Origin: Bacteroidales bacterium
GTDB lineage: Bacteria; Bacteroidota; Bacteroidia; Bacteroidales; UBA10428
Length of the DNA stretch: 43,801 nt
NCBI GenBank assembly: GCA_016936215.1
Contig: JAFGPL010000279.1
Location: 1 to 43,801, forward strand
Direction of reading: 5' to 3'
The translations under genes and the position numbers were made by a program. A model generated the notes under the pieces. The model had not been told where the DNA came from, ran no database searches, and saw only the letters and a list, made by a program, of their open reading frames with translations. Of this stretch, positions 522-38,831 are shown one piece after another. Position 1 is the first letter of the stretch; every line of letters starts with the position of its first letter.

Positions 522-3500
522 TTATTTTCTGTTTATAAATGTTTTTTCGGTGTTTACTGTACCATCCACATATATGATTTGTTTGATAAGGATACCATGG
601 TAGAACTCATCAGGTTCGGCTACCGGGCGGCCGGTAAGGTCGAAATATTTAATATCCTTTATTTCCTTACCTGCGAAGTTGTCTTTTAAGCCGGTATATA
701 CACCATATTGTAATTCGCCTGTGAATATTTCATCATCCTGGCTATAAACCCAAATATAATCTTTACCCGGAACTGCTTCACCGTTGCTTATGATAGCTTC
801 GCCGTTAACAGTAACTGTTTTGAAGCGAATGTCTGAATTTGATGATGTAAACAATTGAACTGTAGAACCTATAGTAGAAGGTGCATTGGCAACAGTTATT
901 TCCAGTATAGCGCTATCTGCTTTTAAATCGCCCGCAGCTACAATTTTCTCATAAGCATCTGTAAAGTTGGTTATATCCAGTTTTACAATAGCTGTTTTGC
1001 TGATATTCAAATTTGCCCCGGCTTTCAAACCATCTTCAAGAATACCATTAATATTGATATCATACATTCCGATAAAATTATCATTTGCTTTCAATGTACT
1101 TGCTGAATCAACTGTTAAGGTCATAGCATTTAAAGCTGGAGCAACAATTGAGTCGTTCAATATCAGTGAAGATTTATTCTTAACATCAATTACATGGGGA
1201 ACAGTATCGGTAGATAAAACTACTTTATTGCCCAATACCAAAGTTCCTCCATCCACTGTAATAGAATTAAACCTTGCTTTATCTGCAACTTGCGGAAAAT
1301 CAATTATCCCGTTAATAGTCCAGCTACCTGAACCGGTTTTGGTAAGACGAATACCACTTGTAGAAGGAGCAATAACTTCAGTTGTGGTATCTGTAGCGGG
1401 AGTGTATTTATGATAAGCACGTATACCACCATCAAATACAGCATCTGTCCCAAGAGACCCGATAATATAACCGGAAGCACGACCATCAACCCAACCGCCT
1501 TCAAGATAAGATGTAGCAGAGCCGGTAAGTTCACCTATATAGATTCTGTCGTTATTGTTGTTGTTTTCATTATAGTCACGCAATACACGAATGTAATCTC
1601 CAAGATGAACTTTTACGCTGTCGAGTGTTTTGCCTTGTACACTGAAACCCGTGGGAAGAGAAAATTCAGTCTTGCTGGTAGTTACATTTACCTGCGAACG
1701 ATAAGGTATTGTACCGCCCAGAGTAGTTGTCCAACGTGTACCCTTTAAACGGCCTTCCTGATTAAACTTCACGTTTAAGTCAGAGATATTTGTTAGATTT
1801 AAGCTGTGTGGGGCAACAGAATCAATAACCAGGTTAAATGCTCCTCCGCTACCGGTTAAGGGAAGGCCAACAAAAGTAGCTTCACCCGATTTTACACCCA
1901 TCTTTAATGTTGCACCGTCAACAGTTGCAGTGTATCCTTTTGCAGCAGCGGCATTTTTAATATTTATTGTATCGGTTGTATTTATAACTATTCCGCCATC
2001 CAATTGGTTATTTAAATTTAATGTAGTAGCTGCAGAAATTGAGAAATTACCTGTACCAGTTAATTTGCCAATACCAGCAAATGTGTATCCGGCAGCAGAA
2101 ACTGAAACATCGCTTGCACCCAGATCAATTGTGCCGTTTACTTCAATGTCCTTATTTGGTGCACCTGCATTAGAGAATGCTGCAGCATTGCCAGACTGGT
2201 AACTTTGCGCAGCGCCGCTATTTACACTGAAATTATCGGCAAGCTCATTCCATAAGCTGTTGGCAGCGCCTGTCCAGACATAAGTGCCTTCTGTTTTTGC
2301 AGATTTCTTGAACTTAACGGTTAAACTGTTATCAGCGAAATCAACTGTTAAATTTTCACCATCGCCTTTGGCCTCATTTGCCTTATGTGTTGAATCGGCA
2401 TCATATGCATAATAAAAATTATCATCAACCACCTTTTCTTTGTCGGCAGAAACGAGGTTGAAAATACTCCCAACCTGCTGGTCAGCCGCAACTCTTGCTG
2501 CTTTTACTATTGCGTTGTCCTGGTCTAAATAGTTAACTGTTACATCAGCTATACCAATAGATTCTTTCCAAACATAAATTTCAAGATTGTCTATTCCACT
2601 GCCTGCCAGGTTGGTGCTATTTCCATTATAACCATTACTACCACGTGTATTAATCATTGACATTACAGACAAATCTGTCACAATTCTGTCTTCTGGAGCA
2701 ACAGTTGCAGCTGTTCCGGCATAAGTAGGAGCCAGGAATTCCATATCTTCAATAGTATCAGTATTTGCTGCATTTGCAATATCTGTAATGATAAGTTTTA
2801 CTACTTTTTGTCCTGCGCGTTTAAAATCCAACATTGCAGTAATATGATAAGTACCACCTGCTCTAATGATTACATCTGTTGCAGAGGGTGCATTTAAACT
2901 ATCCGCAGTTCCAAAAGGCTCCACATTATTTGTAAGACCACTTACAGAGGTTGCACGCCTCCAGGATTGCGAATTTCCAGCAGGAAAAGCTACACCATTT
3001 GTTTCTCCGGGAAGTAAGTTACCTTCAGCATCACGTTTTTGTAAACCATCTCGGTCTTTATTCATATAGTGCATATAACCACTATCTTTCCAGGCATAAA
3101 GCCCGAAAACTCCAGGCAGGTACCAACCATCAGCATTGTTTGTCGGCACTCCATTACTACCTGCAAAAACAATTGCTTCAGCATTTTTTTCTGATAAAGC
3201 AGAAACAGTTGTTAAAATTGTCCAGTCGAACTCAATATTCCAGATTGAGTCGGCCGGATAGCCATTGGCATTAGTTGATGTTGAAGGGAAAATAAGTTCA
3301 GCGCCCCTGCTTCCACCTCCGCCGCCGCTAAAAGCCAGCCATTTTCCACCCCCGGTAAAATCTGCTAATGCAATACCTCCATTGCGGCCAAGGTTAGAAA
3401 AATTACTAGAGGTTGTACTTGTTTTTACTGCCCAATCTGCTGGTAATGCATCAATCTCATCAAAAGTCTGATTCATGTAATGCACTTTGTAATAAGTACC

Positions 3501-3578
3501 AGGCTGTGCAAAAACTGTCCCGGTATAAGCCAATACCATGATTATGGTACCAAGCAAAATAGTAAATGTTTTTTTCAT
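522..3578 (-). CDS. Large secreted beta-rich protein with autotransporter-type repeats and T9SS-like tail
   Basis: 1018 residues. Residues 1-24 are a signal peptide ending in VFAQ. Residues 30-340 are rich in Gly, Ser and aromatics and read like a jelly-roll (LamG/concanavalin-like) module. After a linker near 345-430, a segment with TYVWTGAANSLWNELADNFS begins a long beta-solenoid-like region. It has motifs such as LTGTGNFSI and LTKTGSGSWTINGIIDF, typical of autotransporter-associated (PATR-type) beta strands. The last 45 residues (YFDLTGRPVAEPDEFYHGILI onwards) resemble the T9SS sorting tails of Bacteroidales, so the protein is probably exported across the outer membrane. It is the last gene of the locus, 90 bases after the PL11 lyase, and is followed by a strong terminator. 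No catalytic residues can be recognised. A glycan-binding or adhesive surface role is an inference; a polysaccharide lyase of beta-helix fold is a possible alternative. Confidence 0.85.
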   Translation of the reverse strand: MKKTFTILLGTIIMVLAYTGTVFAQPGTYYKVHYMNQTFDEIDALPADWAVKTSTTSSNFSNLGRNGGIALADFTGGGKWLAFSGGGGGSRGAELIFPSTSTNANGYPADSIWNIEFDWTILTTVSALSEKNAEAIVFAGSNGVPTNNADGWYLPGVFGLYAWKDSGYMHYMNKDRDGLQKRDAEGNLLPGETNGVAFPAGNSQSWRRATSVSGLTNNVEPFGTADSLNAPSATDVIIRAGGTYHITAMLDFKRAGQKVVKLIITDIANAANTDTIEDMEFLAPTYAGTAATVAPEDRIVTDLSVMSMINTRGSNGYNGNSTNLAGSGIDNLEIYVWKESIGIADVTVNYLDQDNAIVKAARVAADQQVGSIFNLVSADKEKVVDDNFYYAYDADSTHKANEAKGDGENLTVDFADNSLTVKFKKSAKTEGTYVWTGAANSLWNELADNFSVNSGAAQSYQSGNAAAFSNAGAPNKDIEVNGTIDLGASDVSVSAAGYTFAGIGKLTGTGNFSISAATTLNLNNQLDGGIVINTTDTINIKNAAAAKGYTATVDGATLKMGVKSGEATFVGLPLTGSGGAFNLVIDSVAPHSLNLTNISDLNVKFNQEGRLKGTRWTTTLGGTIPYRSQVNVTTSKTEFSLPTGFSVQGKTLDSVKVHLGDYIRVLRDYNENNNNNDRIYIGELTGSATSYLEGGWVDGRASGYIIGSLGTDAVFDGGIRAYHKYTPATDTTTEVIAPSTSGIRLTKTGSGSWTINGIIDFPQVADKARFNSITVDGGTLVLGNKVVLSTDTVPHVIDVKNKSSLILNDSIVAPALNAMTLTVDSASTLKANDNFIGMYDININGILEDGLKAGANLNISKTAIVKLDITNFTDAYEKIVAAGDLKADSAILEITVANAPSTIGSTVQLFTSSNSDIRFKTVTVNGEAIISNGEAVPGKDYIWVYSQDDEIFTGELQYGVYTGLKDNFAGKEIKDIKYFDLTGRPVAEPDEFYHGILIKQIIYVDGTVNTEKTFINRK

Positions 3579-6381: not shown

Positions 6382-8196
6382 TTATTTAAATAATGGCAAA
6401 AACCAGTTTTCAGGGGAACTCATATCCACACCGCCACCAGTAATTTCATATTTTTTTGCTAAGTTTTCATCCCAGAAAAAATGGGTGCCAGCACCCGGGG
6501 TTTCCTTGTTCAAACGTCGTGCTATACGAATCAGGTCTTCCCAGCGATGCCCCTCAAAACCAAGTTCCAAAGCTGCCTCACGGGCAATAACCTTCTCCAT
6601 AAAGAGTATGGAGTCATGTTTTGTAAGCGCGTCAGCTGGAAAAATAACATTGGGCAAATTAGCACGGCCGCGTATACCACCGTTGTTTCTCCAGGGTTGA
6701 CGCAGATATGGGATGTCACTTTGACGACCATCAAATGAGTATGGATATGTATAAAGGCTGAATGGGCTGTCACCAGATATGCGTATAGAATCATTGGGAT
6801 AATTACTGCCATTGGGCTTCTTAAAGACAAATGCTGTTCCTGGAATTCCGTCGTTTACAAGCGCCCAGGCAAGCATAGGATACCCAGCACGATTTGCAGC
6901 TTCAGCATAACGCAAGTGCAGCATTCCTGCACGATAGAGGAACCAATTTCCAGCAACATCATTTGATGGAAAATCCTGAAAATATGAATATTTGCGAACA
7001 TAATAATTACCGCCAATTTCAACAAATGCTCCTGTTAAACCTCGTGCATCGAAGGGATAACCATTTTTCTGAAGTTGTCCGCCCCATACCGAATCAACTG
7101 CATAGACAGATGGTTTTAATTGATAATCTCCCGATTCACTGATGGGATCGAAGAGTTTAGGTAACGGATATTTAGGTTCAAATTTTTTATCGTAGGAGAT
7201 AAACCAGATCAGTTCATTTAGGGCTGCACTTGAGGTGGTTGTGCCGGCAAACATTTCTCGCCAACTGTTATACAACGAATTAAAATCCTCATAGCGGCCG
7301 TCACGGTATAAAATCTGGTACCAGTTGGGAGTTGCAGTTGTGTTCCACACCCATGTGTATAAACGGTATTTCGTATTTGAACCAACGTCTTCCCCTGTAG
7401 CCAAGACATCGCGATAAAGTTTTGCTGCCTTATCATAATAGCCGTTGCTGTTATCTGCATCAAATAGGTATAGGTCGGCAAGCAAACATTTTTTATTTAT
7501 AAAAAACGGGCTCAGTGAATACCCGTCAATGTTATTTAATGTCAATTTTGAGGATTGGTATTCTTCTAATGAAGGAAGGCTTTCCATACAAAGAATCAAT
7601 TCAGGTAATAACTGATCCAGGGTAAGTTCATCTGCGTTAGTATCTTCTAAATCTGTAAGTGAAACAACAGGTTCTGTAATATAATTAACTTTGCCAAAAT
7701 GAATACCAAGTTGAAGATAAACCCAGGTTCGTAATGCAGCTACATCTGAATAACGTTCATCGTACTCGGCTTGAATCATTTTCTTTTCTTGGAGCATTTT
7801 ATCGAAATTGAATAAAATATCATTACATGTTTGGATAACCCCATAAAATTTGGTGACATTAGCCCATGGATTATTTTCTGAAGGACGGTTCAGATTAATT
7901 TCTTCCAGATCAGTTGTGGCATTTCCTGTTACATCCATGAGGTCTGCGCGAAGTTCATTTAAAACTACAACCTGAGCAGCCAATTCTGAAAACTGTCCAT
8001 AAAGACCGAGAATTGCGGCATCGGCATCGTCTACATTAGTATATACATTTTTATAATCCAGTACTTCTTCCGGAAAAGTATCCGTACAGGAATAAAAAGG
8101 AATAAAAAAAGCAAGCAACATGATAATTTGCCAGTGAGATAATTTGCTCCTGAAATACTGATTCATCTTGCTGATATTTTTAATAATTATATTCAT
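6382..8196 (-). CDS. SusD/RagB-family surface glycan-binding lipoprotein (pair 1)
   Basis: 604 residues. A lipoprotein signal peptide ends at FIPFYSC (Cys37), followed by TDTFPEE, acidic residues that suit surface export. The helical TPR-like SusD fold is supported by RTWVYLQLGIHFGKVNYI near 146, the C-terminal IAREAALELGFEGHRWEDLIRIAR block, and the family-typical ending with NWFLPLF. SusD caps the SusC channel and binds oligosaccharide. The gene follows its SusC partner with a 29-base gap. An internal ATG at 8164-8166 (MNQYFR) would give a more usual signal peptide. The annotated ATG is kept because a purine-rich stretch (AAAAGAAG) precedes it. Confidence 0.93.
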   Translation of the reverse strand: MNIIIKNISKMNQYFRSKLSHWQIIMLLAFFIPFYSCTDTFPEEVLDYKNVYTNVDDADAAILGLYGQFSELAAQVVVLNELRADLMDVTGNATTDLEEINLNRPSENNPWANVTKFYGVIQTCNDILFNFDKMLQEKKMIQAEYDERYSDVAALRTWVYLQLGIHFGKVNYITEPVVSLTDLEDTNADELTLDQLLPELILCMESLPSLEEYQSSKLTLNNIDGYSLSPFFINKKCLLADLYLFDADNSNGYYDKAAKLYRDVLATGEDVGSNTKYRLYTWVWNTTATPNWYQILYRDGRYEDFNSLYNSWREMFAGTTTSSAALNELIWFISYDKKFEPKYPLPKLFDPISESGDYQLKPSVYAVDSVWGGQLQKNGYPFDARGLTGAFVEIGGNYYVRKYSYFQDFPSNDVAGNWFLYRAGMLHLRYAEAANRAGYPMLAWALVNDGIPGTAFVFKKPNGSNYPNDSIRISGDSPFSLYTYPYSFDGRQSDIPYLRQPWRNNGGIRGRANLPNVIFPADALTKHDSILFMEKVIAREAALELGFEGHRWEDLIRIARRLNKETPGAGTHFFWDENLAKKYEITGGGVDMSSPENWFLPLFK

Positions 8197-30223: not shown

Positions 30224-30934
30224 TCAGCCGGTTTCTGCAGTCTTGGAAAGTTCGCTTTTTCTAAAGACATAAATTATTCCGTATTGGGATGCTTTTTCCC
30301 TGCGTTTTAAATCTGTTTCGCTTTTATAAGCGGCTTCTACCTCATCCCAGATATCAACAATAATAGTGTTAGCCTGTTGGCGTAATTCTTCAAGGCGTTC
30401 CTGCGTGCGCTGAAAATTTTTCTGTAGCATCTTCTGAAATTTATAAGCCTCGAGAAATTTTTCGTACCTCACTTTTACCACCGCGATGGTTGGATTGGTA
30501 ATAGGCGCCCTCGCCTCCATCGAACGGATGGTATCCCCGTGAATTAATTTTTCACCCCATTTAATGAGGTCGGCCTCTGTATTGAACAAAGGCAGCTTGC
30601 TGCCATAATCCTGCAACCCGTAATACTTACGTTCACTTGCAGGCAGGTCGCCCCTTGTAATGGCCATATTGGTTACCTGGATAAAGTGCGAAATATACAA
30701 CCTCGCTTTTTTAACAATGGCAGTGTATTCTTTACTTTTTTCCACCTGCTTTGAATAAGCTTGCCGAGACTCCTGCATTGCCTTTTCGAAGGCAGGCAAA
30801 AAGCTCTGGATTTTTTGCAGTGTAGACTGGCTGAAATCAAGTTTAAACGGCGGCAGTTCTTTTCCTTTTTCGAACGCAATTTTGAGCGCCCTGAGACGGG
30901 CAGCATCTGTATTCGGAAGTCTTCGGTAGGGCAT
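30224..30934 (-). CDS. Conserved Bacteroidota protein of unknown function
   Basis: 236 residues. No domain I can name. It begins MPYRRLPNTDAARLRAL, a start that I recall from uncharacterised Bacteroidota proteins. The sequence is mostly helical, basic and soluble, with no signal peptide or membrane segment. Heptad-like stretches occur at about 45-75 and 165-205 (FQKMLQKNFQRTQERLEELRQ), which suggests helical bundles or a coiled coil. The central part contains LYISHFIQVTNMAITRGDLPA. The C-terminus has many charged residues (YKSETDLKRREKASQYGIIYVF). The gene is a single unit; its stop codon directly abuts that of the convergent protease gene. A nucleic-acid or chaperone-type role is possible but not supported. 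Confidence 0.75.
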   Translation of the reverse strand: MPYRRLPNTDAARLRALKIAFEKGKELPPFKLDFSQSTLQKIQSFLPAFEKAMQESRQAYSKQVEKSKEYTAIVKKARLYISHFIQVTNMAITRGDLPASERKYYGLQDYGSKLPLFNTEADLIKWGEKLIHGDTIRSMEARAPITNPTIAVVKVRYEKFLEAYKFQKMLQKNFQRTQERLEELRQQANTIIVDIWDEVEAAYKSETDLKRREKASQYGIIYVFRKSELSKTAETG

Positions 30935-31264
30935 GTCAGATTATGGTTATGAAGGTAAGATATGTACGAAGGTAAGAAATTGTTTTAAAAACTCAATACA
31001 TTCGTAAATAAAATTTAATGAAATAGAGCAGATTAGGAAATTTTACACATTTCTTCATTATAGGTTAATTTGTTAATAAGTAACATTTTTTATGGTTATA
31101 AACCATTGAAAAGAAAAATTCCATTAACTTAGAAGTTGATTTATCTAATGTAACTGTAAAAATGCCTTGTATTAAAGCAACATTTAATGACAGAGGCATT
31201 ATTTTACTGCGTTCGCAGATAATCTTTTAACGTGAATATCTGTTTAAAACTCAAAACTTTCACC
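30935..31264. other. Intergenic region between two divergent genes
   Basis: About 330 bases without a gene. A 10-base direct repeat GAAGGTAAGA occurs at 30951-30960 and 30968-30977, just upstream of the unknown minus-strand gene. A small palindrome CTGCGTTCGCAG lies at 31208-31219, ahead of the aminopeptidase start. No strict TAnnTTTG promoter was found on either strand. An ATG at 31162 opens a 22-codon frame ending at 31230, which could be a leader peptide but has no support beyond its position. Confidence 0.5.
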
Positions 31265-32656
31265 ATGTTTCCCAAAGAAGTTTACATAAAACGAAGGAAT
31301 GAGCTAAAACGAAGGCTCGGAAAAGGAATGGTTTTTTTGCCCGGCAACCATGAGAGCCCCATGAATTATGCTGCCAACCAGTATCCCTTCAGGCAGGACA
31401 GTACATTTCTGTATTATTTCGGGATTGATGAACCCGACAGGGCCGGTATAATAGATATTGATAATAACAATGATATTATCTATGGTAATGAAGCTGATCT
31501 TGAGGATATTATATGGATGGGTAACCTGAAGTCGCTTGAAGAAATATCAAAGCAGGCCGGGATCGGGGAAGTTAAGCCGCATCATGCACTTGAAACCGAT
31601 ATAAATAAAGCCGTTGCTGAAGGCCGTGAAATTCATTTTTTGCCTGCTTACCGTGCCGATATTAAAGATGAATTGTCCTGGCTTTTTGGAAAGAATACAA
31701 AGGAAATAAACAGTTTTGCCTCTGTTGGTCTTATCAGGGCAGTTGTGGCTCAGCGGTCAGTAAAAGATGCATACGAAATTGCCGAAATGGAAAATACCAT
31801 GACTACCGTTACTGCCCCCTTTTATCACGAAACCATGAGGCAATGTGTTGCAGGAAAATTCGAGTATGAAATGGCTGGGCTGATGGAAGGCATGGCCCTA
31901 AAAAACAACTGCAGTATGGCTTACCCTGTTATTTGCAGTGTTAACGGGCAGATACTGCATAATCACTATCATGGCAATAAGATGAATGATGGTGACCTCT
32001 TACTGATTGATGCAGGGGCCGAATCACCTTTGCATTACGCTACAGATATTACACGTACAATACCCGTTTCAGGAAAGTTTACAAACAGGCAAAAAAATAT
32101 TTATCAACTGGTATTGAAGGCTTTAAACGAATCAATAAATATGATTAAGCCGGGTGTTAAATACCGGCAGGTACATCTTAATGCAGCAAGAATAATTACT
32201 GAAGGATTGAAAGACCTGGGACTGATGAAAGGAAATACAGACGATGCTCTGGCAAACGGGGCTCATGCTATGTTTTTTCCCCATGGGCTGGGGCACATGA
32301 TTGGCCTTGATGTGCATGATATGGAAAACCTCGGGGAAAATTATGTAGGTTACGATGATTCCACCATACGGTCAGATCAATTTGGCATACAATATCTTCG
32401 GCTTGCAAAAGAACTAAAGGAAGGATATACGCTTACTGTTGAGCCGGGCATATATTTTATACCTGCCTTAATTGAAAAATGGAAATCTGACCATCACCTT
32501 TCAGAATTTTACAACTTTGAAAAAATCTACGAATATATTGATTTCGGTGGTGTAAGAATTGAAGATAATGTACTTGTTACCGCGGAAGGCCGCAAAGTTT
32601 TGGGGACACCTGTTGCAAAAACTACAGATGATATTGAAAACATAATGAAGCGATGA
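31265..32656 (+). CDS. Xaa-Pro aminopeptidase, M24B family (longer paralogue)
   Basis: 463 residues from ATG 31265. A GTG at 31232 would add 11 residues and is less likely. It removes N-terminal residues that precede proline. The N-terminal creatinase-like domain spans about 1-165, with NYAANQYPFRQDSTFLYYFG near 35. The pita-bread metalloprotease domain spans 170-463. The dinuclear metal ligands are in place: Asp in LIDAGAE, Asp in ATDITRT, His in FFPHGLGHMIGLDVHD, Glu in TVEPGIYF and Glu in GGVRIEDNV. The insert between these blocks (VGYDDSTIRSDQFGIQYL) makes it longer than the second paralogue at 38971. The SiaABC-like genes follow on the same strand, the first 62 bases downstream, so they may be co-transcribed. 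Confidence 0.92.
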   Translation: MFPKEVYIKRRNELKRRLGKGMVFLPGNHESPMNYAANQYPFRQDSTFLYYFGIDEPDRAGIIDIDNNNDIIYGNEADLEDIIWMGNLKSLEEISKQAGIGEVKPHHALETDINKAVAEGREIHFLPAYRADIKDELSWLFGKNTKEINSFASVGLIRAVVAQRSVKDAYEIAEMENTMTTVTAPFYHETMRQCVAGKFEYEMAGLMEGMALKNNCSMAYPVICSVNGQILHNHYHGNKMNDGDLLLIDAGAESPLHYATDITRTIPVSGKFTNRQKNIYQLVLKALNESINMIKPGVKYRQVHLNAARIITEGLKDLGLMKGNTDDALANGAHAMFFPHGLGHMIGLDVHDMENLGENYVGYDDSTIRSDQFGIQYLRLAKELKEGYTLTVEPGIYFIPALIEKWKSDHHLSEFYNFEKIYEYIDFGGVRIEDNVLVTAEGRKVLGTPVAKTTDDIENIMKR

Positions 32657-32718
32657 CAATTTAGAAGAAATTACTATCTTTAGTTACGATGAATCATTTC
32701 ACTTTGTGTAGAAGAAAA

Positions 32719-34479
32719 ATGAACCAAAAATACCTGATATTCTTTGTTTTGTTCCACCTGTTAGCAGGTTCGGTAATTGCACAGCTAAGCCCGGCTTTAC
32801 AAAAAGAAATCAGCACGAATGATGAACAGGCGGAAAAACATATCAGTGAAGGCAACCTTGCCGAGGCTGCCAAACTATACAACCATTCGGCATATATTCT
32901 CAGAAACCATCATCAGCACGAAACTGCAGCCGGCTATTATCTTAAAATTCTCGATCTGAACAAACAACTGAATAACCAACGCGGACTTCTCATAACTTAT
33001 AACAATCTGGGAATGACCTATCTCGATGCTGAGCAGTATGGCAAAGCACTGCCACAGCTTGAAAAAGGCCTTGAATTAAGCCGAAAAATTGACACCAAAG
33101 AAGCAGTGATATCTGCCATTACCAATATAGCTGTTGCTTTGCAGGGCCTTGAACGTTACCAGGAGTCGAACCAGCGCCTTGAACCTGCAATTCAGATGGC
33201 AAAAGACATCAACGACCTGAAATTACTCAGGAGATGCTATGGAATTGTTTATGAGAACTATGAGAAATTAGGTCAGTCAGAAAAATCTTACCAGTTTTTC
33301 GAATTATACTCTTCCCTTGATAAAGAGATAAAAAAGCTGGAGATGAAGCAGGTGAAGCAGGAAGCTGAAACTGAAGTGAACAAGGCACAGGCTGATAAAC
33401 AACTTACCGAAGCCGAACTGAAAATAAAAAAAGAGGAGCTTGAAATCACTACAGACTCCCTTGTTAAGGTCGAAAAACTTACACGCGAACAGCGTCTTGA
33501 GCTGGAGGTAAAAAATGCCGAATTAAGGGAGAAAGATGCGCTGCTCAAACTTAAAAACCTAAGGATAAGGTTTATTACCATCGGATTAATCGTACTGCTT
33601 TCGTTTTCACTTGCACTTACATTTCTGTTGATAAAACTGAGAATTGCCAATAAACAGATACGGTCGCAGCGTGACCTGCTTGAAAGGCAAAATAAAAACA
33701 TTACCGCCAGCATACGTTATGCAATGACTATTCAGCAGGCTATGCTGCCCGATCAGGAAATGCTCGGTAAACTGTTCGATTCGTTTATAATTTACAGGCC
33801 CAAAGACATTGTATCAGGTGATTTTTACTGGATTTCAGGCTTTGACGAGAAACGTGCAGATAAAAACAAATATTATGTTGCGGTGGTTGATTGTACCGGG
33901 CACGGGGTTCCCGGGGCATTTATGTCCATGATTGGTAACAGGTTGCTCAACGAAATAGTGAATGAAAGACAGGTTGAAGAACCCGAAGAAATACTCGAAA
34001 TACTAAATAATGAAGTAAGAATAGCATTAAGGCAGGAGCAAACAGACAATAATGATGGCATGGACCTGACTTTGTGCCGTTTTGAAAAACAGGGAAACAG
34101 CGGTCTGAAGCTTATTTTTGCAGGCGCCAAAAGAACCATGTATATTTTTAAACATGCTGAAAACGAACTTATAGCTTTAAAGGGTGATCGTAAATCCATC
34201 GGGGGTGTCGGGGAGAAAAAAGAGACCCTGAAGTTTACCAGACATGAAATGTTAATTTCAGCCGGGGATATACTCTATATGCTCACCGATGGCATCATAG
34301 ACCAGAACGGCCAGGACAAAAAACGTTTTGGCAGCAGCAGGGTAGAAGAGCTTATCCGGGCCATTCACAAAGAAGATATCAAAAAACAAAAAGATTTGCT
34401 TGAAAAAGAATTATCAGAATATATGGGAAACGTAGAACAGCGTGATGATATCACACTGATCGGATTATTGGTTAAGTAA
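32719..34479 (+). CDS. SpoIIE/PP2C-type phosphatase with TPR and coiled-coil sensor region (SiaA-like)
   Basis: 586 residues from ATG 32719, chosen because it gives a clean signal peptide ending at VIAQ. An ATG at 32689 would add ten residues. TPR repeats cover about 30-200 (GLLITYNNLGMTYLDAEQY). A long coiled coil spans 205-285, with a transmembrane helix at 285-305. The cytoplasmic SpoIIE domain runs from 330 to the end and has the motifs SGDFYW (366-371), DCTGHGVPGAFMS (391-403), YMLTDGIIDQNG and RDDITLIG. These supply the acidic metal ligands of PP2C serine phosphatases. In the Pseudomonas SiaABCD system SiaA dephosphorylates SiaC. The next two genes encode SiaB- and SiaC-like proteins, so the same role is likely. 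The TPR part would be periplasmic, unlike the HAMP-type sensor of Pseudomonas. Confidence 0.88.
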   Translation: MNQKYLIFFVLFHLLAGSVIAQLSPALQKEISTNDEQAEKHISEGNLAEAAKLYNHSAYILRNHHQHETAAGYYLKILDLNKQLNNQRGLLITYNNLGMTYLDAEQYGKALPQLEKGLELSRKIDTKEAVISAITNIAVALQGLERYQESNQRLEPAIQMAKDINDLKLLRRCYGIVYENYEKLGQSEKSYQFFELYSSLDKEIKKLEMKQVKQEAETEVNKAQADKQLTEAELKIKKEELEITTDSLVKVEKLTREQRLELEVKNAELREKDALLKLKNLRIRFITIGLIVLLSFSLALTFLLIKLRIANKQIRSQRDLLERQNKNITASIRYAMTIQQAMLPDQEMLGKLFDSFIIYRPKDIVSGDFYWISGFDEKRADKNKYYVAVVDCTGHGVPGAFMSMIGNRLLNEIVNERQVEEPEEILEILNNEVRIALRQEQTDNNDGMDLTLCRFEKQGNSGLKLIFAGAKRTMYIFKHAENELIALKGDRKSIGGVGEKKETLKFTRHEMLISAGDILYMLTDGIIDQNGQDKKRFGSSRVEELIRAIHKEDIKKQKDLLEKELSEYMGNVEQRDDITLIGLLVK

Positions 34480-34496
34480 TTTAAAAATTTTATAAG

Positions 34497-35015
34497 ATGG
34501 TGTTTAAAGAGGGATATGATCCGGAGAATGTAGTTGCCTATAAGGGGCCTTTAACGGTGGGGCTTTTATCATATTTGGGCAATTATCTTAAAAGTGTAAT
34601 AAAAGCTGAACACTCACTTGAGAAAAAAATTTTTCGTATTTTTATTGAACTAACACAAAATGTGTCTTATTATTCTGCCGAGACTGCTACTATTGATAAT
34701 GGAGTAAGTTCGGGGGTCGGGTGGTTTACCGTTAAGAAAAGTAATAATCATTTTGTTATTACTACCGGAAATCTTATCATCAAAAGCGATGGGTTAAAGC
34801 TTATAAATAATTGTGATGAAATAAATTCTATGAATGAAGCGGCACTCAGGGATTTAAAAAGAAAAACCAGGAGCCAGGCCATGGAACGTGATGTTGGTGC
34901 GCACATCGGGCTTATTCAGACAAGCCTGTTAAGTAAGAGTAAATTAAATTATAAAGTTACCGGGCTTGATGATAAATATTCCTATTTTACCATATCGGTG
35001 GATATCAAAGATTAA
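34497..35015 (+). CDS. SiaB-family protein kinase (DUF6272)
   Basis: 172 residues, typical of SiaB. A GHKL-type ATPase fold is visible. The helix RIFIELTQNVSYYS (about 47-60) fits an N-box with Glu and Asn for Mg-ATP, and GAHIGLIQ near 138 fits the G-box. SiaB kinases phosphorylate a conserved Thr of SiaC, opposing the SiaA phosphatase. The gene is 17 bases after the phosphatase and 26 bases before the SiaC-like gene, so it is a tight operon. No membrane segment or signal peptide. It could also act as an anti-sigma-type kinase, but the partner gene makes the SiaB assignment more specific. Confidence 0.85.
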   Translation: MVFKEGYDPENVVAYKGPLTVGLLSYLGNYLKSVIKAEHSLEKKIFRIFIELTQNVSYYSAETATIDNGVSSGVGWFTVKKSNNHFVITTGNLIIKSDGLKLINNCDEINSMNEAALRDLKRKTRSQAMERDVGAHIGLIQTSLLSKSKLNYKVTGLDDKYSYFTISVDIKD

Positions 35016-35041
35016 ATTTAAAAAATTTGAAAATTTTTAAT

Positions 35042-35434
35042 ATGGAAAACATTATTATTAAAGAAGTTCAGGATGCCCCTTACTATCCGGTGGTAAATTT
35101 TAATGCAGAGAAAGGTGTCTGTGAGATTTCAGGCGAATCTTATATGGAAGAGACATTTAAATTCTATTCCCCGTTGCTCGAATGGGTAAAAAAATTTTTA
35201 AAAGAAAAAGATTCCCCGCTAACCCTAAATTTCAAGCTTACATATTTTAATACCAATTCATCAAGGCTTATTCTCGATATGCTCGATATTGTTAAAAAGA
35301 ATATTGAAGAAGGGAAAAAGGTAGTGGTAAACTGGTTTTACGATCCGGCCGATCCTGACATGATTGACGAAGTTGAAGATTTTGAAATGGAAACGGGGCT
35401 TGATATCAACCTGGTTGAAATGCAAAAAAACTAA
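35042..35434 (+). CDS. SiaC-family regulatory phosphoprotein (DUF1987)
   Basis: 130 residues from ATG 35042. A TTG 15 bases upstream is less likely. The STAS-like fold has the family motif KLTYFNTNSSRLILDML (65-81). Thr71 is the position expected to match the phosphorylated Thr68 of Pseudomonas SiaC. Phosphorylation by SiaB and dephosphorylation by SiaA decide whether SiaC is free to bind its target. In Pseudomonas the target is diguanylate cyclase SiaD. No GGDEF protein is encoded nearby here, so the output is open. The gene ends the plus-strand unit and meets the succinate dehydrogenase operon head-on, with 13 bases between. Confidence 0.88.
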   Translation: MENIIIKEVQDAPYYPVVNFNAEKGVCEISGESYMEETFKFYSPLLEWVKKFLKEKDSPLTLNFKLTYFNTNSSRLILDMLDIVKKNIEEGKKVVVNWFYDPADPDMIDEVEDFEMETGLDINLVEMQKN

Positions 35435-35447
35435 TACAAAATGGTTT

Positions 35448-36191
35448 TTAGGCATTAAATGTCGCAGAAAAATATTCACGGTTCATCCTGGCAATATGCG
35501 ATAATGATATTTCCTTCGGGCATTCGGCTTCACAGGCCCCTGTATTGGTGCAGTTACCAAATCCAAGTTCATCCATTTTCTGAACCATTTTAAGCACTCT
35601 TTCTTTAGCTTCAACTTGTCCCTGGGGAAGCATGGCGAACTGGGAGACTTTGGCAGCTACAAAAAGCATGGCCGATGCATTTTTGCAGGCTGCCACGCAA
35701 GCCCCGCAACCTATGCAGGCAGCAGCATCCATGGCAATATCTGCATTTTTCCTGGGTACAGGTATGGTATTCGCATCGGGCACACCACCTGTGTTGACCG
35801 ATATAAAGCCGCCCGCCTGTATTATTTTGTCAAAAGCGCTGCGGTCTACCACCAGGTCTTTTATTACAGGAAAAGGTTTAGCCCTCCAGGGTTCCACTAC
35901 AATGGTATCTCCGTCTTTGAATTTCCTCATGTGAAGTTGACAGGTAGTTATGCCTTTGTCCGGGCCATGCGGCCGGCCGTTGATATACAACCCGCAGGCA
36001 CCGCAGATTCCTTCTCGGCAATCGTGGTCGAAACACACGGGCTTTTCAAATTTGTCAATCAACTGCTGGTTGAGGATATCCAGCATCTCAAGAAAAGAGC
36101 AGTCGGGCGAAATATCCTGAAGCTGGTAAGTTTCAAAGCGTCCTTTTGCCCGGGCATTTTCCTGCCGCCATATTTTAAGCGTGAAATTCAT
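35448..36191 (-). CDS. sdhB: Succinate dehydrogenase/fumarate reductase iron-sulfur subunit
   Basis: 247 residues from the ATG at 36189-36191. The frame extends upstream, but the true protein starts with [10 protein letters not shown]. The [2Fe-2S] ligands are Cys58, Cys63, Cys66 and Cys84 ([10 protein letters not shown]...C). The second cluster region has Cys159, Cys162, Cys165 and Cys169 ([11 protein letters not shown]), and Cys214, Cys220 and Cys224 complete the [3Fe-4S]/[4Fe-4S] set. It passes electrons between the flavoprotein and the membrane quinone. Four bases separate it from the flavoprotein gene. Anaerobic Bacteroidota use this enzyme mainly as fumarate reductase, so frdB is an equal name. 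Confidence 0.95.
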
Positions 36192-36195
36192 TTCT

Positions 36196-38136
36196 TTAAA
36201 TTTTATAATTTCTGACCTGTACCTTAATAAACTCATAATCAATGTTTTCTTTATGCAGTATAGGTTCTTTATCTTTGCCCTGGTATTCCCATGCCGATAC
36301 ATACATAAATTTACCATCGTGCCGCATGGCTTCTCCTTCGGGTGTCTGGTGCTCTTCCCTGAAGTGTCCGCCGCAGGATTCCTCCCTGTTTAGAGCATCC
36401 AATGCCATGAGCTCACCAAGTTCGATAAAATCTGCCACACGTCCGGCTTTCTCAAGTTCGGGGTTCATACCGGCAGCATCACCCGGAATGCGGATATTTC
36501 CCCAAAACTCATCTTTCATATCTTTAAAACTGGTCAAAGCCTGTTGAAGGCCATCTTTGTTGCGCCCCATACCGACCAAATCCCATAGTTTCATTCCGAA
36601 TTCCCTGTGTATTTGATCAACGGTACGTTTGCCCTTAATACTCATCAGCCTGCTGATGCGCTCTGAAATAGCGTTTTCAGCATCCTGAAATTCCTGCAGA
36701 CTGGTCGAAATCCTGGGTGTCATGATCTCTCCGGCGAGGTAATTCTGGATGGTATAGGGCAAAACGAAATAACCATCTGCCAGTCCCTGCATTAGCGCCG
36801 ATGCACCCAGCCTGTTTGCGCCATGGTCGGAGAAGTTTGCTTCACCAATTGCAAACAGTCCCGGAATGGTGGTCATCAATTCATAATCAACCCAAATACC
36901 GCCCATGGTATAATGAATTGCCGGGTATATCATCATTGGTGTTTTGTAGGGATTTTCATCGGTAATTTTCTCGTACATCTGGAAAAGATTGCCGTATCTT
37001 TCTTCAATTACATTTTTTCCCAACCTGTTAATGGCATCTGTAAAATCAAGGTAGACTGCAAGACCGGTTCCTACGCCATAACCGGCATCACATCGTTCTT
37101 TTGCGGCCCTTGATGCTACATCGCGCGGCACCAGGTTGCCAAATGCGGGATACCTTCTTTCGAGGTAATAATCACGATCTTCTTCAGGGATATCAACGGA
37201 TGATAGTTTACCGGCACGAATGGCTTCAGCATCTTCTTTTTTCTTTGGCACCCATATCCGGCCGTCATTTCTCAGGCTTTCGCTCATCAGGGTAAGTTTC
37301 GACTGGTAATCGCCATGTACTGGGATACAAGTAGGGTGAATCTGCACAAAAGCAGGATTGGCAAAAAAGGCACCTTTTTTATAAGCCTGCCAAATAGCGC
37401 TGCCGTTCGATCCCATGGCATTGGTCGAAAGAAAAAAAGCATTTCCGTAACCACCTGTTGCCAAAACAACGGCATGTGCGGCATGGCGTGTAATCTCACC
37501 GGTAACAAGGTTTCTTGTGATAATGCCCCGTGCTTTGCCATCCACAATTACCAGGTCGAGCATTTCGGAGCGTGTAAACATTTTAACCGTACCTTTCGCG
37601 ATTTGCCTGCTCAGTGCGCCATAGGCACCAAGCAATAACTGTTGCCCCGTTTGTCCCCTGGCATAGAAGGTTCGTGAAACCTGTGCGCCCCCAAATGACC
37701 TGTTGTCAAGCAATCCCCCGTATTCACGGGCGAAAGGCACTCCCTGCGCCACACACTGGTCTATAATGGCATTGCTTACTTCTGCCAGCCGGTAAACATT
37801 AGCTTCCCTCGACCTGTAATCTCCCCCTTTTATGGTGTCGTAAAACAACCTGTAAACACTGTCACCGTCATTACGATAATTTTTGGCAGCATTGATACCT
37901 CCCTGTGCTGCAATGCTATGTGCCCTTCGGGGACTGTCCTGGTAACAGAATGCCGAAACATTAAAACCAAGCTCACCCAGCGAAGCTGCAGCCGAAGCAC
38001 CTGCAAGTCCAGTTCCTACTATAATGATATCGAGTTTTCTTTTATTGGCAGGGTTTACAAGTTTTTGTGTCGCCTTATACCGGGTCCATTTATCAGCCAG
38101 CGGCCCTTCGGGTATCTTTGCATTTAGTCTGATCAT
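36196..38136 (-). CDS. sdhA: Succinate dehydrogenase/fumarate reductase flavoprotein subunit
   Basis: 646 residues. FAD binding is shown by [17 protein letters not shown] (37-53) and by His73 in [16 protein letters not shown], the covalent FAD attachment site. The active-site block is [13 protein letters not shown], and [42 protein letters not shown] binds the C-terminal FAD lobe. It catalyses succinate-fumarate interconversion at the cytoplasmic membrane face. The length and block pattern fit the class B enzyme with a single cytochrome b subunit, encoded just upstream. The three genes form one operon, with gaps of 20 and 4 bases. Confidence 0.96.
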
Positions 38137-38156
38137 AATATGGTGATTACAGTTTT

Positions 38157-38831
38157 CTATTTAAAAAAATAAATGTATACCGGGATAGAGATGTAGCCGG
38201 TTGTTACCACTACAGAATATAATACTCCAAGGGTTTTGATAACCGGGGTATAAGATTTATGGTTAATCCCGAGTGTTTGAAATGCCGACTGAAACCCGTG
38301 ATGCAGGTGAAATCCTAATCCAAGCAGCAACACAACATAAACAACCACTACCCATCCTATTTTGAATCGCTCCAGCACAAGCGCCCCAAGATTATGGTAT
38401 GTTTCACCATCGGCATAGGTAATTTCATGTACCGAACCAAGGAATTTGTTTTTCACCCAGAAATCAAAAAGGTGCAGCACAAGGAAGATAGTTATTATCA
38501 ATGCGGTATGCAGCATATATTTAGAAAAAAATGATGTTTGCGAATAGTTGGCCTTTTTATAACCTTTTGGCCTTGCCATAAGATTCCCTACCTGTAATAC
38601 CGCCCCGTAAACCATGTGCAGCAGGAACCCACCGAATAAAATCACTTCCATAACTTTTATTACCGGGTTGGTACCCATAAATGTGGCAGCCCTGTTAAAG
38701 GTTTCGGTATCTTTATACAATATCAGCGTGATGTTTATTGCCAGGTGAAGTAAGAGAAAGGCCAGAAGAAACAGCCCGGCAAGTGACATCATAAGCTTTT
38801 TGCCTATAGATGAGGTAAAGATATTGCTCAT
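38157..38831 (-). CDS. sdhC: Succinate dehydrogenase/fumarate reductase cytochrome b subunit
   Basis: 224 residues with five predicted membrane helices. This is the class B type with one anchor protein and usually two haems. Histidines in helices are candidates for haem ligands: [34 protein letters not shown] and [10 protein letters not shown]. It transfers electrons between quinone and the iron-sulfur subunit. It is the first gene of the operon sdhC-sdhA-sdhB. The N-terminus [20 protein letters not shown] is characteristic of this subunit in Bacteroidota. Confidence 0.94.

Follow-up and report, generated by a model that had tools for sequence, protein, structure and literature searches.

What does a SiaABC partner switch control in a bacterium whose genome yields no match to a diguanylate cyclase? 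The SiaABC trio is known from biofilm control in Pseudomonas, and consecutive SiaA-, SiaB- and SiaC-like genes for a phosphatase, a kinase and a phosphoprotein occupy positions 32719-35434 of the plus strand in a 43,801-nucleotide stretch of Bacteroidales DNA (contig JAFGPL010000279.1, assembly GCA_016936215.1), referred to here as the window. No SiaD or GGDEF gene adjoins the trio. We lean, with some reserve, towards a threonine-phosphorylation partner switch of the Pseudomonas chemistry, with an output that is not a diguanylate cyclase and with a class III cyclase as the leading candidate.

The SiaABC trio and the search for a diguanylate cyclase

A preliminary description of this DNA, drawn from its letters alone, had placed the phosphatase, kinase and phosphoprotein here as a tight operon, and this assignment is borne out by the open reading frames, by Pfam and NCBIfam matches and by the Pseudomonas structures that are the best solved relatives. 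The genes are separated by gaps of 17 bp (SiaA-SiaB) and 26 bp (SiaB-SiaC). The kinase passes the cut-off of the NCBIfam profile SiaB_fam_kinase NF038262 (117.2 bits, cut-off 85) and matches PF19788 with 107.4 bits (cut-off 26.6); its closest solved relative is Pseudomonas SiaB (6kko, 9.5e-13), with the IEMTQN of which its own IELTQN aligns. With the glutamate of this motif taken as Glu61, the predicted catalytic residue of Pseudomonas SiaB in the accessible text of PMC7647112, the window protein has both the profile and the catalytic glutamate of the SiaB family. The phosphoprotein likewise combines a PF09345 match (130 bits, gathering score 24.5) with a threonine at the Thr68 position, the two marks of the SiaC family, and is closest among solved structures to Pseudomonas 6kko and 6k4f (1.2e-15). 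Sequence alignment puts its Thr71, the residue singled out in the preliminary description, opposite the phosphorylated Thr68 of Pseudomonas SiaC. Its start is probably the ATG at 35042 and not the TTG at 35027.

The SiaA-like protein is laid out as a signal peptide, TPR repeats, a coil, a transmembrane helix, a second coil and a C-terminal phosphatase domain. Its open reading frame spans 32689-34479, with a likely start at the ATG at 32719 that is followed by a signal-peptide-like stretch. Pfam finds TPR and SpoIIE domains (SpoIIE, 6.6e-22), the closest solved relative is Pseudomonas SiaA (6k4e, E=4.6e-34), and the two proteins are identical in the motifs to which D457, D474, D600 and D653 of the Pseudomonas protein belong (numbered as in the accessible part of PMC7647112 and placed on the alignment by motif). 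The metal-binding motifs are those of 6k4e, as in a SiaA-type PP2C phosphatase. An AlphaFold model made without an alignment is good in the TPR part; the phosphatase part, mostly with a predicted local distance difference test score (pLDDT) below 50, was not used for a fold search. Taken together, Pfam, the model and hydropathy support a TPR solenoid and a single transmembrane segment (about residues 285-307 of 586) with long helices on either side, in keeping with the TPR repeats and long coiled coil of the preliminary description, and the order of signal peptide and transmembrane helix suggests that the TPR domain is periplasmic. All three proteins miss the NCBIfam equivalog cut-offs (SiaA NF038263, 188.6 of 700 bits; SiaB NF038264, 68 of 225; SiaC NF038265, 98.8 of 150), and we therefore call them members of their families and not Pseudomonas equivalogs.

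The absence of SiaD, also remarked on in the preliminary description, holds for the genome as well as for the neighbourhood. The window's assembly (5.3 Mb in 332 contigs) has an estimated completeness of 100% and contamination of 3.42%, and the GGDEF search of it that had been suggested as a means of finding a competing partner gave no match, so that no GGDEF protein emerged to which SiaC might bind; the search was positive in 8 of 14 control genomes. No match to the diguanylate cyclase SiaD, whose place as output characterizes SiaABCD, was thus found in this genome. The same genome holds 16 SiaC matches, that of the window among them, with 4 matches to SiaB and 12 to SpoIIE; the phosphosite is Thr or Ser in 15 of the SiaC proteins and Cys in one. 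Seven further genomes chosen for their many SiaC copies make up with it a comparison set of eight, by design not a random sample, which contains 130 SiaC against 71 SiaB matches. Across the phylum SiaC is rare, with 18 of 296 evenly sampled genomes positive and one to four copies in those besides the window's own; within a sample of the order it is common, occurring in 63 of 149 at up to 21 copies per genome. SiaB is present in 64 of these 149 genomes, including all 63 with SiaC. GGDEF matches are confined to five of the 149, and only one of these (G360) also has SiaC; the contig that carries the GGDEF gene of G360 is 4.7 kb long and showed no Sia gene. Sixty-two of the 63 SiaC-bearing genomes in the order sample are therefore without a GGDEF match. 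These counts indicate that SiaB and SiaC co-occur and that GGDEF does not accompany them, and, since the pair is kept and multiplied without a GGDEF match, that no diguanylate cyclase is needed for the switch to be retained. Its multiplication in so many genomes speaks for a switch with no fixed tie to cyclic di-GMP (c-di-GMP), and we consider it very probable that the output of the SiaABC switch here is neither a diguanylate cyclase nor c-di-GMP. The earlier expectation that it controls something else finds support both in the window's genome and in the order-wide counts.

Window-type loci and a class III cyclase

The window SiaC and two proteins closely related to it served as queries in a scan of named genomes, which yielded 35 loci of the window type, all in metagenome-assembled genome records named Bacteroidales, Bacteroidetes or Bacteroidota. 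Two phosphatase genes, then SiaB and, where called, SiaC form the pattern at 27 of them; a single phosphatase gene, as in the window, is found at five (L167, the nearest relative, and L187, L188, L195 and L198), and three loci are incomplete. A domain scan of one member, L043, showed its first phosphatase to be a REC-SpoIIE protein. A SpoIIE protein on contig C76 of the window's genome was considered as a displaced REC phosphatase and rejected, no REC domain being apparent by eye in its sequence.

Two main patterns of flanking genes appear among these loci, sdh genes at 11 (the window's group) and a divergent gene of 505-534 residues at 18; six loci show neither. Pfam, run on one member (L102), resolves the divergent gene product into REC, PAS and class III nucleotide cyclase domains (PF00211, 1.6e-47), and a distance of 119-298 bp separates the gene from the nearest phosphatase gene in the 17 loci, out of 18, that were measured. 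The product carries a Lys and an Asp that we take to be the residues specifying ATP, and we therefore regard it as an adenylate cyclase. Although this cyclase is linked to the cassette in 18 of the 35 named loci, it is not linked in the window, where a relative is instead encoded elsewhere in the genome: one of two class III cyclases there, on contig C93, aligns over the whole REC-PAS-coil-cyclase length and is 46% identical to the two operon-adjacent cyclases compared. Cyclase and Sia genes also meet in G313, where SiaB and a cyclase are 75 bp apart on the same strand, and in G391, where SiaC adjoins a class III cyclase of a second type (L235). Across the eight comparison genomes, 3 of 18 cyclases adjoin a run of Sia genes. 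A rough chance model, which like that used below for the exporter counts orthologous loci as independent and ignores phylogeny, gives P 6e-4 for this, or 0.01 if the one window-type case is set aside and the other two are taken by themselves. The second cyclase type (L221:7853-9250, L226, L230, L232, L233 and L235) has, by eye, a C-terminal HD-like region and is perhaps a cyclase and phosphodiesterase in one chain.

The surface of SiaC offers a separate line of evidence. According to the accessible text of PMC8457831, Pseudomonas SiaC touches the SiaD stalk through residues that include D29, Y31, N67-S69, D79, R103, L107, E110 and D114. We aligned 158 SiaC sequences, to which 33 of the 35 named loci contributed a row (L195 and L200 are absent). 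Thr or Ser occupies position 68 in 152 of them, with Thr in all 36 window-type sequences. The window-type proteins have E29 and Y31 in 36 of 36 and D/E79 and E114 in 35 of 36, whereas the other 122 often have R/K29 (71), L/I31 (66), K/L/R79 (62) and I/L114 (61). The window-type surface is therefore more like that which binds SiaD than are the surfaces of most paralogues, and so fits a stalked partner. In a tree built on 137 of 159 SiaC rows, the window-type rows, together with ten other SiaC, form a single cluster (24 rows, support 91) apart from SiaC proteins linked to an exporter, which are described below.

We infer the phosphorylation, the direction of switching and the partner as follows. 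SiaB would phosphorylate SiaC on Thr71, and SiaA, a membrane phosphatase, would sense something through its TPR domain, signal through the transmembrane helix and coiled coil, and then strip the phosphate from SiaC. Unphosphorylated SiaC would bind and activate its partner, which for the window may be the class III adenylate cyclase of REC-PAS-coiled-coil build on contig C93. Like SiaD, this candidate is a nucleotide cyclase that has a stalk of helices, but it would yield cyclic AMP; if it is the partner, one and the same phospho-switch governs two second messengers of different chemistry. The window switch would be one of several parallel SiaC switches per cell, of which a paralogous one appears to be built into an exporter operon.

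Among single candidates the adenylate cyclase is the best that sequence comparison offers, though as the partner of the window SiaC it is put forward tentatively, and several observations weigh against it. The C93 cyclase branches beside the operon-adjacent clade and not within it, with moderate support (81/84). No cyclase was seen beside the operon in the 11 named loci of the sdh-flanked group, to which the window belongs, and pepP lies upstream in all eight of these with that side visible, the other three ending before it. The cyclase-adjacent loci themselves also keep genes that by eye are branched-chain aminotransferase-, cytidine-deaminase- and M3-peptidase-like; since such housekeeping-like genes are equally conserved around them, the cyclase could owe its position to nothing more than collinearity. 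Window-type SiaC departs from the Pseudomonas protein at two contact positions (R103 to D, L107 to E), the contact residues that are kept may serve binding to SiaA or SiaB instead, and ten other paralogues fall among the window-type rows of the tree.

The paralogous exporter cassette and other possible targets

All eight comparison genomes carry an operon that encodes SiaA, SiaB, SiaC, an exporter of about 1040 residues, a lipoprotein-like protein and a secreted-like protein, preceded in five of the eight by CheR, CheB and GAF genes. (The open reading frame caller gave 125 SiaC proteins for the 130 search matches in these genomes; loci L042, L054 and L075 yielded none and were left out of the maps.) A domain scan of the operon in the window's genome identified its SiaA as a GAF/PAS-SpoIIE protein and found TerB, ABC ATPase and ABC2 permease domains in the large protein; the products of the last two genes had no Pfam match in this copy and have N-termini suggestive of a lipoprotein and of a secreted protein, respectively. 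The TerB-ABC-ABC2 family, represented by L014:8410-11556 with relatives at L137-L166, numbers 32 copies in the eight genomes, three to five in each and five in the window's own. For twelve of the 32 a SiaC gene is no more than 700 bp away (P about 7e-13 under a rough model with a 2% chance for each copy), although eight of these belong to the one conserved, orthologous operon; the others are in other arrangements, mostly convergent. This comparison used 25 of the 130 SiaC places, the remainder being on separate contigs or too distant to affect it.

The association recurs across the order sample. The exporter occurs in 62 of the 149 genomes, and 57 of these also have SiaC; six genomes have SiaC alone, five the exporter alone and 81 neither (Fisher 4e-28, phylogeny ignored). 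At least 38 of the 43 best exporter copies have one of the listed SiaC genes within 400 bp, a lower bound based on 67 SiaC places with up to five exporter candidates scored per genome; a 39th was found separately, and one copy has SiaB with no SiaC in between. The TerB-ABC exporter is thus likely to be the output of the paralogous cassette, and if so, partner switching gates transport directly. Between its TerB and ATPase domains lies a stretch with weak signs of being a degenerate FHA-like domain: one hit, at E 0.15, is to a MEK1 chain that we take to be the FHA domain of that protein, and 1 of 22 members matched at 0.052.

Other arrangements of the Sia genes were also found. Fusions occur as SiaB-SiaB-SiaC at two loci (L058:5981-7537 and L059:4866-6410) and as SiaA-SiaC at one (L047:7581-9650), where Ile replaces the phosphosite threonine; by sequence these chains hold a kinase or phosphatase together with its substrate. 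Tandem SiaB-SiaB proteins occur at 12 further loci. Of 220 operon-type SiaC neighbours, 178 were left after removal of exporter-operon clusters and of proteins of 900 residues or more, and the nearest 91, picked by hand, were scanned. No usual output domain recurs in these among the top 25 of 169 families; the frequent families are mainly housekeeping (RlmL, S41 protease, GMP synthase), and a MacB/FtsX-type permease appears twice. In G000 (L016:7215-8873) and G391 (L101), SiaC adjoins this permease together with two further neighbours common to both, perhaps another link between SiaC and a transporter.

How far, then, do other targets compete with the adenylate cyclase for the window SiaC? An unlinked target of a different kind, which a survey of neighbours would not reveal, is a credible minority prospect; a histidine kinase, a regulator or SiaA's own coiled coil would be examples. 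The window's group of loci shows only housekeeping-like conserved neighbours, and the scan of paralogue neighbours brought up no usual output domain among its 25 most frequent families. Such a target leaves the contact residues of SiaD-stalk type unexplained, when a stalked cyclase is available. We think it improbable that the TerB-ABC exporter is the common SiaC output throughout the order, with the window SiaC acting on an unlinked copy or through shared kinases. The operon conserved in all eight genomes, the adjacency and co-occurrence figures and the five copies in the window's genome speak for this, but the counts ignore phylogeny, the gene maps of the 35 window-type loci, which take in at most six genes to either side, show no exporter gene, and window-type SiaC differs from exporter-linked SiaC in its place in the tree and in its contact residues.

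We are similarly sceptical that the SiaC paralogues share a few kinases and compete as substrates, so that the cassette tunes a common pool of phosphorylation. The excess of SiaC over SiaB, both in the window's genome and in the comparison set, and the phosphosite kept in nearly all of the window genome's copies are as this would predict, yet the window pairs one SiaB with one SiaC and the SiaB-SiaB-SiaC fusions point to dedicated pairs. It would be very surprising if the target did prove to be a diguanylate cyclase that had escaped notice in an assembly gap or as an unrecognised GGDEF variant; the assembly is in many contigs, but its estimated completeness, the working search in control genomes and the order-wide lack of GGDEF matches beside SiaC all speak against it. 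The adenylate cyclase retains its place as the foremost single candidate. The preliminary description had called the target of SiaC an open question; it is now less so, since the neighbour survey names candidates, the exporter for the paralogous cassette and the REC-PAS adenylate cyclase for the window's. More broadly, and more tentatively still, SiaC may be a general output adaptor, the SiaABC set having been copied many times within one order such that the window's copy acts on an adenylate cyclase and a sister copy on an exporter.

Surroundings of the operon and known partner switches

The operon is bordered by pepP upstream and by convergent genes downstream that we take to be sdhB, sdhA and sdhC (Table 1). 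The Xaa-Pro aminopeptidase gene has the same upstream position at 8 of the 35 named orthologous loci. Both pepP and the sdh genes were rejected as SiaC partners, being housekeeping genes found in one group of loci only.

Table 1. Coordinates of the SiaABC operon, its predicted parts and its neighbours in the window
Feature	Position	Strand	Basis
Xaa-Pro aminopeptidase gene (pepP), 62 bp before the SiaA start	31232..32656	+	Pfam M24/AMP_N
SiaA-like PP2C (SpoIIE-type) phosphatase, 586 residues	32719..34479	+	Pfam SpoIIE/TPR; 6k4e alignment
Predicted TPR solenoid, presumably periplasmic	32791..33273	+	Pfam TPR_12; single-sequence AlphaFold model, pLDDT about 80-96
Transmembrane helix between TPR/coil part and second coil with phosphatase	33565..33645	+	Hydropathy maximum, residues 283-309
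PP2C/SpoIIE catalytic domain	33862..34467	+	PF07228 match
SiaB-family protein kinase (DUF6272), 172 residues	34497..35015	+	PF19788, 5.5e-31; NF038262 above cut-off
SiaC phosphoprotein (PF09345), 130 residues	35042..35434	+	PF09345, 4.7e-38; 6kko chain C, 1.2e-15
Thr71 codon of SiaC, equivalent to Thr68 of Pseudomonas SiaC	35252..35254	+	Alignment and sequence
Convergent neighbour genes, sdh-type	35448..38831	-	Translations; neighbours in 11 of 35 named loci

Elsewhere in the window, on the minus strand, a 236-residue protein without a Pfam or NCBIfam match (30224-30934) has relatives beside pepP in several named loci. A polysaccharide-utilisation-like block on the same strand (3669-26523) includes a rhamnogalacturonan lyase of family 11, SusD, three fasciclin-domain proteins, a hybrid two-component regulator and two proteins with TonB-dependent receptor plug domains. 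Two large minus-strand proteins of 1018 and 604 residues (525-3578 and 6385-8196, respectively) have no Pfam match at 1e-10.

The window system resembles SiaABCD of Pseudomonas aeruginosa, as set out in the accessible parts of PMC7647112 and PMC8457831, in the grouping of phosphatase, kinase and phosphoprotein genes, in its SpoIIE/PP2C and SiaB motifs, in the Thr68 equivalent and in several SiaD-contact residues kept in window-type SiaC. It differs in its sensor, a TPR domain with one transmembrane helix where Pseudomonas SiaA has, in the same sources, two transmembrane segments and a HAMP domain. It also differs in a genome without a SiaD or GGDEF match and in the two phosphatase genes of most orthologous named loci (27 of 35).

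A wider likeness is to the partner switches of STAS type, of which RsbU-RsbW-RsbV is one. In these the protein that binds the output is small and STAS-like and is toggled by a PP2C phosphatase together with a switch kinase, an arrangement shared by the window; unlike them, the window's kinase and phosphoprotein match the DUF6272 and SiaC families, and no sigma-factor or GGDEF output was seen. HsbA-HsbD and BgrSTUWV, named in the accessible text of PMC8457831, are further switches of this type. For the paralogous exporter cassette only, a parallel exists in mycobacterial Rv1747-PknF, where, by the available accounts, an exporter-like ABC transporter bearing FHA domains shares its operon with the Ser/Thr kinase by which it is modulated; the kinase type differs, and the FHA likeness of our exporter is weak.

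Searches of the open-access literature found neither DUF6272 nor a TerB and ABC transporter combination with a partner switch. The one article there that joins SiaABCD with a term beginning Bacteroid- is PMC9239204, which in its accessible part concerns Campylobacterota, and the accessible portions of the papers on SiaC name no partner besides diguanylate cyclase. The authors of the eLife study (PMC8457831) do propose, in the text available, a general role for DUF1987 proteins as modulators of adjacent proteins. To that proposal we offer concrete candidates, and the conserved neighbours described here make new outputs of SiaC, beyond the SiaD of Pseudomonas, testable.

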